Below, piece by piece: positions 61,178 through 64,000 of a DNA stretch of 64,000 bases. The position numbers were made by a program, and so were the translations under genes. Positions within the stretch are counted from its first letter, which is position 1; each line of letters opens with the position of its first letter. Below the pieces are notes generated by a model. The model was given only the letters and a program-made list of their open reading frames with translations. It made no database searches and had not been told where the DNA came from. The DNA comes from Pseudomonadota bacterium (GTDB lineage Bacteria > Pseudomonadota > Gammaproteobacteria > Acidiferrobacterales > UBA6901), in assembly GCA_027364845.1 (NCBI GenBank), contig DAHXOO010000004.1:51841-115840 (forward strand). Direction: 5' to 3'.

Positions 61178-61353
61178 GATCCGCATACGTGTAGCACGGC
61201 CGGATTGGATCTGGATCAGCGCGCCGTAAAAATATCGCCACACCGGCTGCGTGCCCAGGATGCGTCTTGCGGTTATGGACACCGATGCAGGCCTTGGGTC
61301 ATTTACAGTGGCAGGACTGGTTCGTCGATTGAAAACTACATAATTGCAGTGTC

Positions 61354-61869
61354 ATGAGCATTTCCGAAACTGATGCCTGGTTTCTCGTGTATTCGAAGCC
61401 GCGCCAGGAGGAAACGGCGAAACAGAACCTGGAGCGCCAAGGCTACAGCGTATACCTGCCGCGCGCGGTCCAAAATCGGCGGCGGGAAGGACGGCGCGTT
61501 GCAGTAGTGGGGCCGCTGTTTCCACGCTACCTCTTCGTCCGGTTCAATGTGCAGTCGGACAATTGGGCGCCGATCCGCTCGACTGTCGGGGTCGCCGCAT
61601 TGGTGCGCTTCGGGTCGGCACCGGCGCGCGTACCGGACGCGCTTATTGCCCTGTTGCGTTCGAATGAAGCTGCATCCGGGATTCATGAGTGGACCCATGC
61701 GCCTTTGAGGGTCGGCCAAACGGTGCGGGTCGCGGAAGGAGCGTTCGTTGGTTACCAGGGGATCTTCCTCGCCCGTACCAGCCGCGAGCGGGTGATCGTG
61801 TTGCTCGATATCCTAGGACGTCCGGTACGTGCGCAGTTTACGGCAGATCAGGTGGATCCGGCGGAATAG
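61354..61869 (+). CDS. rfaH: Transcription/translation regulatory transformer protein RfaH
   Basis: WFLVYSKPRQEETAKQNLERQGYSVYLP..PLFPRYLFVRF, NusG-superfamily KOW tail. Confidence 0.9.
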   Translation: MSISETDAWFLVYSKPRQEETAKQNLERQGYSVYLPRAVQNRRREGRRVAVVGPLFPRYLFVRFNVQSDNWAPIRSTVGVAALVRFGSAPARVPDALIALLRSNEAASGIHEWTHAPLRVGQTVRVAEGAFVGYQGIFLARTSRERVIVLLDILGRPVRAQFTADQVDPAE

Positions 61870-61926
61870 TCGTACTGGAACAACAGGTCCCCAATGCACC
61901 GAGTGAGGCTCGGTGACTTCTCCTGG

Positions 61927-62283
61927 TCACCCCGGCGCGGGCGCCAAATCCAGTACCTCGCCCAGGGCACTGTCCACCCGCACCATGAACTCTACTGAGC
62001 ACTGCACCAGCGGACCCTCGATCAGACGTTGGTTATCGATTGCGCGCAGCTGATCGATTAAGAGGTCCGAGTCATTCTTTAGCTGTCCATGCGCGCACAG
62101 ACGCAGCCGCAACGGTACGGCTTCCTCCACCAGGTGGGTAGTCAGCGGAACGACGAGCGTAGAGGGATGGTTGGCGTCCAGCAGCGCCTGGCTCTGCACG
62201 ATCAGCACCGGGCGTATCTTGCCCGCTTCGGTGCCGCGTGGTGGGTTGAGGTTTGCAAGCCAGATGCTTCCGCGCTTACGCAT
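61927..62283 (-). CDS. MazF/PemK-family mRNA interferase toxin
   Basis: RGSIWLANLNPPRGTEAGKIRPVLIVQS, VVPLTTHL, DQLRAIDNQRL. Confidence 0.9.
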   Translation of the reverse strand: MRKRGSIWLANLNPPRGTEAGKIRPVLIVQSQALLDANHPSTLVVPLTTHLVEEAVPLRLRLCAHGQLKNDSDLLIDQLRAIDNQRLIEGPLVQCSVEFMVRVDSALGEVLDLAPAPG

Positions 62284-62512
62284 CCGGTGCGTCTTCAATG
62301 GCATCAAATTCGGCGTTGACCCGCATGCTTTCGCCGCGTACCCGCCGCGAGGCCTCCATCATGCGCTGGCGGCGGTGCTCGGCGAGCACCTGTGCATTGA
62401 GTACGGTAATCGCCCGCCGGATGTATTCGGCGCGTGGAATCTTGAGATCCCTCGCGCGTTTGTCCGCCTCCTTGACGAGTTCATCCGGCAGGCGCAACGA
62501 AACAGTAGCCAT
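62276..62512 (-). CDS. Ribbon-helix-helix (MazE-like) antitoxin
   Basis: MATVSLRLPDELVKEADKRARDLKIPRAEYIRRAI; overlaps toxin gene by 8 nt. Confidence 0.85.
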   Translation of the reverse strand: MATVSLRLPDELVKEADKRARDLKIPRAEYIRRAITVLNAQVLAEHRRQRMMEASRRVRGESMRVNAEFDAIEDAPDA

Positions 62513-63056
62513 ATATGTATCTCGATTTGTACTCTGATATTAGTATATATTTCGTAGTCATTTCGGGCAAGCCTGAATTCTCCGTGTAGCCCGTGCCCGA
62601 TAACGGTAGATGGATGTGCTTTGAAGTACTCTCTGCCATTCAATGGATTATCGATGTTCTAGTAAGATCTTTCCCGTGGTAACCCTTCTTTCTTTAGTCG
62701 CAAAGGCAATAAAATTGCGCCTGATCCGCAATCACCCAGCGAATGCTGGTGCCAGTGCCGGCACAAAATGCGGATGAACGACGACCTCACCCGAGCGTGC
62801 GGACCGGGAACAACAGCGGTGGATTCCTGCGGGGATATGGAGAGCAGACGGGTACGGTGTTGGATGGAAACAGGGCTTTCATTAAGTGCCGTCGCTCGCA
62901 AAGCGACTTCGCTGCCGCTCCATAATGAAAGAGCGCCCCTCACGCATGGTCGTTCGATCGTTGAGCCGGACAGGCCATTCTTGGCAGAGGATTAGGACAC
63001 TTTTTCTCGCTTAGCGCTTGACCAGATGTTTTGAACATAAGTATAGTGTTCAACAA

Positions 63057-63674
63057 ATGAACACAGAGCGTAACCGGGAGGATGCCTTGACTCTGGAGAT
63101 TCTGGACGTGGTCCAGAAACAGAGTGACGTGAGTCAACGGCACCTGGCGAGGCACCTGGGCGTCGCTCTGGGACTTGCGAATTCCTACTTGAAGCGTTGT
63201 GTGCGCAAAGGACTGATCAAGATTACCGAGGCTCCGGCCAACCGCTATCTCTATTACCTCACTCCCCAGGGTTTTGCGGAAAAGAGCCGACTCACGGCCC
63301 AATATCTGAGTTACTCGTTCTCGTTTTACCGCCAAGCCGGTGAGTCCTGTGTCCGCGTCTTTGACAGCTGCCGGGACAGGGGCTGGATGCGGCTGCTGCT
63401 GTGCGGAGTTTCGGATCTTGCAGAGATCGCCACCCTGCGTGCCGCAGAGCGAGGGGTTGGTATCGTCGGTTTCTACGATCCGCGCAGTGAGCGCAAGCTG
63501 TATCTTGATCGACCGGTATGGCGCGAGTTTGCCAAGGCGGGCGCATATGACGCCTGCATGGTAACGGATTTCCTGGCGCCGCAGATGACTTATGACCACC
63601 TGGCAGGCCTTATTGAACACGAGCGGGTGCTGGTGCCAGACGTGCTGGGTTTGGCGCCGAGAGACAGCGATTAA
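63057..63674 (+). CDS. MarR-type winged-helix regulator, EPS-associated family
   Basis: LEILDVVQKQSDVSQRHLARHLGVALGLANSYLKRCVRKGLIKITEAPANRYLYYLTPQGFAEKSRLTAQYL. Confidence 0.85.
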   Translation: MNTERNREDALTLEILDVVQKQSDVSQRHLARHLGVALGLANSYLKRCVRKGLIKITEAPANRYLYYLTPQGFAEKSRLTAQYLSYSFSFYRQAGESCVRVFDSCRDRGWMRLLLCGVSDLAEIATLRAAERGVGIVGFYDPRSERKLYLDRPVWREFAKAGAYDACMVTDFLAPQMTYDHLAGLIEHERVLVPDVLGLAPRDSD

Positions 63675-63752
63675 CAGGCGTGGACAACCCCGGCGGCAAG
63701 GCCGGTTTGCGCTGAACAGGTAACGAAAAGCCGTGTGGAGCATGCTCTGCAT

Positions 63753-63764
63753 GGCGGTAGCGTG
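63753..63764 (+). promoter_or_regulatory. ops (operon polarity suppressor)/JUMPstart core, predicted RfaH recruitment site
   Basis: Exact GGCGGTAGCGTG, intergenic, 79 nt after the MarR-type gene, with rfaH 1.9 kb upstream. Confidence 0.8.
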
Positions 63765-63956
63765 CCCGAAACCCGAGCAGTACCTCGAGTCTGGTAACGG
63801 ACAGCCGGCCGGGTCTTAACGTTGATCGGATGCGTCGCGCATGCTGCTATCCCCCTGCGTCCTTTTTCAGCAGACAGGCACAAACAATCGCAACGTGGCG
63901 GCGCGACCATCAAGAGCACCTTCCTTCTTTCATGATGCGTAACTCACAGAGGTAAG

Positions 63957-63975
63957 CCCCCGGCTCTGCCGGGGG
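63957..63975. repeat. Strong hairpin CCCCCGGC-TCT-GCCGGGGG
   Basis: 8-bp perfect stem with 3-nt loop near right window edge. Confidence 0.6.
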
Positions 63976-64000
63976 ACTCACCCGGGTTTGACCTATACCG

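Follow-up and report, generated by a model that had tools for sequence, protein, structure and literature searches.

The last part of the window (the whole 64,000-nt stretch of DNA analysed here) carries the 12-mer GGCGGTAGCGTG, and raises the question of whether this is a genuine RfaH loading signal and which genes it would serve, the contig ending at window position 64000 with nothing assembled to its right. A first-pass annotation had joined an rfaH gene, a regulator gene and the 12-mer into the start of an RfaH-controlled polysaccharide operon. This grouping was well caught, whereas a hairpin, a candidate operator and the family-wide character of the arrangement were missed. The loading signal at the contig end belongs to a widely conserved cassette, the parts of which are listed in Table 1 together with neighbouring features.

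Table 1. Coordinates of the features discussed (window positions)
Feature	Position	Strand	Basis
rfaH (171 aa)	61354..61869	+	TIGR01955, 162.5 bits vs cutoff 144.5
MazF/PemK-like toxin (61927-62307) and RHH antitoxin (62276-62512)	61927..62512	-	Pfam PemK_toxin, RHH_1
Sigma-70-like promoter TTGACC-18-TATAGT of regulator gene	63018..63047	+	
Candidate operator GTTCA-N5-TGAAC, over regulator start codon	63048..63062	.	
Winged-HTH regulator (205 aa) with C-terminal Rossmann-like domain	63057..63674	+	HTH_24, MarR_2; AlphaFold2, Foldseek; orthologues in 80 loci
RNA hairpin, base ending 1 nt before ops	63734..63751	+	Stem score and covariation, 54-56 sites
ops element GGCGGTAGCGTG	63753..63764	+	Exact, conserved
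Left end of IS200-type element	63940..64000	+	Identical to IS200 left end on contig C8

The match to the E. coli ops core is exact, as had been claimed, and its intergenic, plus-strand position 1.9 kb from rfaH was confirmed, the element starting 78 nt past the regulator stop and about 1.88 kb from the rfaH end. No further match with at most one mismatch was found in the 64,000-nt window, and the genome-wide count that had been proposed returned no other exact copy in the 3.15-Mb, 184-contig assembly. Identity of the 12-mer alone is nevertheless weaker evidence than the first-pass annotation took it to be. Over 369 genomes of the class, the bare 12-mer occurred about as often as a reversed control, so that a bare site is not significant genome-wide. 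In a sample picked by the 12-mer alone, rfaH or the regulator was near 8 of 29 exact sites, and the other 21 had neither within 1.5 kb. Counting of the bare 12-mer across genomes was dropped as uninformative, and second exact copies in three relatives (G003, G004 and G005) were set aside because their flanks are unlike. The case for a real ops element rests instead on conservation of position: the exact 12-mer recurs at the same place in all four relatives that carry the regulator, while the surrounding intergenic DNA is poorly conserved.

A wider set of 80 loci was fetched using a profile of five regulator orthologues; most are from named Gammaproteobacteria and some are labelled beta or alpha. 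An exact ops follows the regulator gene shortly and on the same strand in 50 of the 80, mostly at 45-345 nt and typically at 45-100 nt past the stop (median gap 92 nt, measured from the matched end of the gene). Five further loci have a one-mismatch ops in this position, none of the 80 has an exact ops on the minus strand near the regulator, and about 30% have no recognisable ops nearby. The rfaH gene lies upstream of the regulator on the same strand in 48 loci, the window included, and within 300 nt in 36. Six loci of alphaproteobacterial type (L136-L141) have the regulator first and rfaH behind it, and three of these show hairpin/ops-like matches further on. These parts, with their order, strand, spacing, conservation and the hairpin covariation described below, make up the directly observed side of the cassette.

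The interval between rfaH and the regulator was compared for the window (61870-63017), L008 (1-3987) and L009 (1-4400) and proved a variable insertion spot. It holds the MazF/RHH toxin-antitoxin pair in the window, Wadjet JetC/JetD in G005, about 20 kb in G003 and nothing in G006; it may be a hot spot for defence islands. The toxin-antitoxin pair is an insert and does not belong to the cassette.

What the cassette controls can be read in the relatives. All four share the regulator-ops pair, followed by manC in three and by cysC-manC in one, the latter (G006) having the compact order rfaH - regulator - ops - cysC - manC. In G003 and G005, the two relatives followed further downstream, manC lies about 310 nt after the exact ops; next come cysC, polysaccharide exporter genes of ABC-2 type and genes for a sugar nucleotidyltransferase and an epimerase. 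A 1.3-kb gap separates ops from manC in G004. In the sampled loci, downstream open reading frames are strongly co-directional (155 plus vs 11 minus), and among the 114 that were scanned, nucleotide-sugar epimerase/dehydratase families were matched by 42, ManC domains by 8 and ABC transporters by 12. Thus, where genes unrelated to surface polysaccharides would have spoken against the first-pass prediction, manC, cysC and exporter genes were found in relatives, and the proposed union of activator, local regulator and polysaccharide operon is supported in every relative with the regulator, widely across the sampled loci and, by synteny, in the host.

In the host itself, an IS200-type element starts 175 nt after ops, and its left end makes up the last 61 bases of the window. 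The start of host manC lies behind IS200 and ISL3 copies on a short contig, C8 (L041). Oriented alike on C8 are the transposase gene of IS200, an ISL3 element with an 8-bp duplication (AACTTAAT) on either side, and manC as far as codon 193; the insertion elements before manC were noted at about L041 767-2769. The likeliest host order is ops - IS200 - ISL3 - manC, a join suggested by synteny rather than by direct reading, and ops is likewise placed in the operon leader, on the coding strand, by synteny. Insertion elements seem to have struck the operon leader, and the break in the assembly is due to them as well. A search for cysC in the host's own genome found none.

The opposite end of C8 carries FeeM- and Fis-type genes. 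There, a gene for a FeeM-type N-acyl amino acid synthase adjoins one for a large Fis-HTH protein (L041 2777-5218, minus strand), possibly a signalling pair. Relatives of the Fis-type gene sit on contigs other than the manC contig, so that C8 is rearranged or chimeric. The FeeM- and Fis-type genes are doubtful as true neighbours of manC, the Fis-type gene being on other contigs in relatives and C8 making the join through an IS200 copy.

Initiation was considered from the promoter region of the regulator gene. The sequence TTGACC-18-TATAGT is the only plus-strand promoter-like site in 61180-64000, and TTGAC/TATAGT was found again upstream of the regulator in many loci. The inverted repeat GTTCA-N5-TGAAC abuts its -10 box, immediately after the promoter. 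An exact copy was found in 73 of 81 loci, its usual position being -9 relative to the start codon, against 0 of 357 background stretches, and a second copy, with two mismatches allowed, was present in about a third of loci. Within the family there are one or two copies per genome, one of them at the regulator promoter in all five regulator-bearing genomes. Where rfaH abuts the regulator (gap of 3-44 nt), the repeat is located just upstream of rfaH instead (6/6 loci). The repeat thus tracks the operon promoter, as expected of an operator, and is taken as a candidate site. Extra copies were noted about 2 kb from a nusG-like match (G000:C102:34158-34172 and G003:C22:22539-22553), possibly a second target or a chance occurrence.

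No separate promoter was found between the regulator and ops in the window. With ops typically 45-100 nt after the regulator stop such a promoter is unlikely, so that regulator, ops and polysaccharide genes probably form one transcript.

The regulator had been called MarR_EPS-like. This holds for its N-terminal part, which is all that matches MarR_EPS (TIGR04176), at 65 bits against a cutoff of 88. Like that family, the protein has an N-terminal winged HTH and sits in polysaccharide loci; unlike it, the protein falls below the cutoff, is about twice as long and has an additional, Rossmann-like C-terminal domain. AlphaFold2 predicts the winged HTH with low confidence, followed by a long helix and by the C-terminal domain with good confidence. 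Foldseek likens this domain to the CoA-binding domain of succinyl-CoA synthetase and, weakly, to UDP-glucose dehydrogenase and WbaP. The winged-HTH region ALGLANSYLKRC is near-invariant. A PDB sequence search gave weak MarR matches only, and a search of the literature on the regulator family yielded nothing relevant.

Between regulator and ops comes a stem-loop whose 3′ base, with few exceptions among the loci, stays 1 nt away from ops. The mean stem score at this anchor is 6.69, compared with 3.88 ± 0.15 in shuffles. In a MAFFT alignment built without structure reference, 82.2% of hairpin cells are paired, against at most 58.5% when the hairpin is slid, and 45 cells are compensatory, against 21 in shuffles. 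Following alignment to a model, which leans towards that model and includes a few palindromic reverse-strand matches, two-sided changes were seen at all eight stem pairs. The hairpin+ops model, run on the 369 genomes, gave matches in 57; rfaH, the regulator or both lie within 1.5 kb of 25 of the 30 best loci, some of which come from the training set. Some genomes (G061, G116 and G233) carry 3-5 matches each, suggesting that RfaH has several targets, some in trans besides those in cis.

In the window, base pairing can continue beyond the stem for 3 bp of ops RNA, GCC pairing with GGC (63730-63764; -17.3 kcal/mol). Across loci, anchoring at the first two ops bases likewise gives high stem scores; such an extension may have a part in releasing polymerase from the pause. 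Hairpins are known to prolong polymerase pauses (PMC6336406). From its position, we infer that the hairpin would form at the RNA exit while polymerase sits at ops, where it may limit backtracking or help escape.

The RfaH protein matches TIGR01955 over its full length and above the curated cutoff. The side chains of E. coli RfaH that contact ops are K10, H20, R23 and R73 (eLife structure, PMC5995543). In the window protein, K10, R23 and Q24 are kept, H20 is replaced by Asn and R73 by Val. In a set of 47 RfaH proteins compared with E. coli, K10 (44/47) and R23 (43/47) are mostly retained and Q24, T72 and G74 always so, while H20 is Asn in 40, R73 is lost in 46 and N70 is Arg in all 47. With H20 and R73 changed and ops identical, the element would be met by a partly different protein surface. 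As regards an autoinhibited, alpha-helical C-terminal domain able to refold, AlphaFold2 models this domain as a beta-barrel, and the model is closest to recruited RfaH (8phk) among the RfaH structures spanning both domains; this is only suggestive. In the same respect, E48 of E. coli is Gly in the window protein and R138 is kept.

The arrangement can be read as a two-gate cassette in which autoregulated initiation is followed by RfaH-dependent elongation, and we regard this functional reading as likely. At the first gate, the winged-HTH protein would bind its own candidate operator, placed right against the -10 box and over the start codon of the leaderless or near-leaderless regulator gene. 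From this position it would most likely repress initiation, with relief once the C-terminal domain has taken up a ligand (a nucleotide sugar, NAD(H) or a CoA derivative, perhaps); both the direction of regulation, repressor or activator, and the identity of the ligand are guesses. At the second gate, modelled on RfaH biology, polymerase that has passed the regulator gene would meet ops, with the nascent RNA hairpin forming directly behind it. There ops would pause the polymerase and load RfaH, usually the product of the adjoining gene, which would then carry polymerase across the long manC-type operon. The lack of conservation of H20 and R73 in this RfaH lineage, the unassembled state of the operon to the right of the window, the IS200 copy 175 nt after ops and the roughly 30% of loci with no recognisable ops near the regulator count against the two-gate reading.

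Three other readings were weighed against it. The locus could be under ordinary RfaH/ops control and nothing else, the hairpin being a relic or incidental and the winged-HTH gene a neighbour with its own transcript and an unrelated role. This would invoke a known mechanism, rfaH genes often have polysaccharide neighbours (PMC7593976), and the loci in which the regulator has no recognisable ops nearby are accommodated; we consider it unlikely, given that spacing and strand of regulator and ops are conserved in more than 50 loci, that the hairpin covaries and that the median gap of 92 nt leaves little room for the separate promoter, none having been found in the window. The dyad before ops, a short palindrome adjoining the regulator gene, might alternatively be a DNA operator at which the winged-HTH protein acts as a roadblock rather than an RNA hairpin. 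Its letters, however, change in a compensatory way while ALGLANSYLKRC is near-invariant, which disfavours it as the regulator's DNA site, and it is the other palindrome, GTTCA-N5-TGAAC, that is conserved in sequence at the promoter; a roadblock is accordingly very improbable. A chance match of the 12-mer, in keeping with its near-background frequency across the class, is already contradicted by conservation, since related genera hold the exact 12-mer in the corresponding position, as do 50 of the 80 loci, hairpin and strand being kept too; this reading has next to no probability.

Beyond the two-gate reading, we tentatively raise the possibility, itself rather doubtful, of a widespread cis-encoded RfaH lineage that perhaps does not switch fold, is recruited jointly by nascent hairpin RNA and by ops DNA and is firmly tied to an initiation autoregulator, so that one cassette would sense a metabolite and gate both initiation and elongation of surface-polysaccharide operons. 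The loci supply cis-encoded RfaH and exact ops in dozens of natural pairings distant from the enterics, present the JUMPstart-type hairpin as a covarying partner of ops and not an enteric peculiarity, and offer a specific candidate operator for an uncharacterised regulator family. They make testable whether the hairpin helps RfaH loading, how ops is read by an RfaH without H20 and R73, and whether ops recognition is earlier than autoinhibition. If the reading is true, an identical ops facing a changed surface (Arg at position 70 but not at 73) would put the origin of ops before the E. coli mode of reading it.

RfaH, ops, JUMPstart, polysaccharide neighbourhoods and an HTH regulator beside one RfaH cluster (CL4, PMC7593976) are already known. 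In the part of the literature covered, which does not prove absence, no report was found of the operator, of regulator-ops coupling, of a covarying hairpin outside JUMPstart or of cis-encoded RfaH with an exact ops. In cluster CL4 (Wang et al. 2020, PMC7593976), rfaH lies beside an HTH regulator as it does here, and this is probably the same association; the main text of that paper gives no ops, hairpin or operator for the cluster.

As in JUMPstart RNA (Rfam RF01707), the base of the stem-loop lies 1 nt before ops; unlike in JUMPstart, the stem sequence differs and the loop is variable. The E. coli rfb JUMPstart scores 60 bits to RF01707 with the same 1-nt geometry and a different stem, the window scores 16.5 bits against a gathering cutoff of 35, and none of nine related loci reached this cutoff. 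The E. coli RfaH-ops system (PMC5995543, PMC11001881) shares the same 12-nt ops, an RfaH equivalog and long co-directional polysaccharide operons with the present cassette. Unlike in E. coli, rfaH is encoded here beside its target, a dedicated winged-HTH regulator gene precedes ops, other residues stand in place of H20 and R73, and Arg is invariable at position 70. E. coli RfaH has been described as the only representative with a mode of recruitment known in detail (PMC7593976). UpxY, TaA and monomorphic RfaH in cis (PMC7593976, PMC13015549) are, as here, specialised NusG paralogs encoded beside the target operon; their recruitment is reported as unknown or ops-independent, whereas the cis-encoded RfaH described here is paired with an exact ops.
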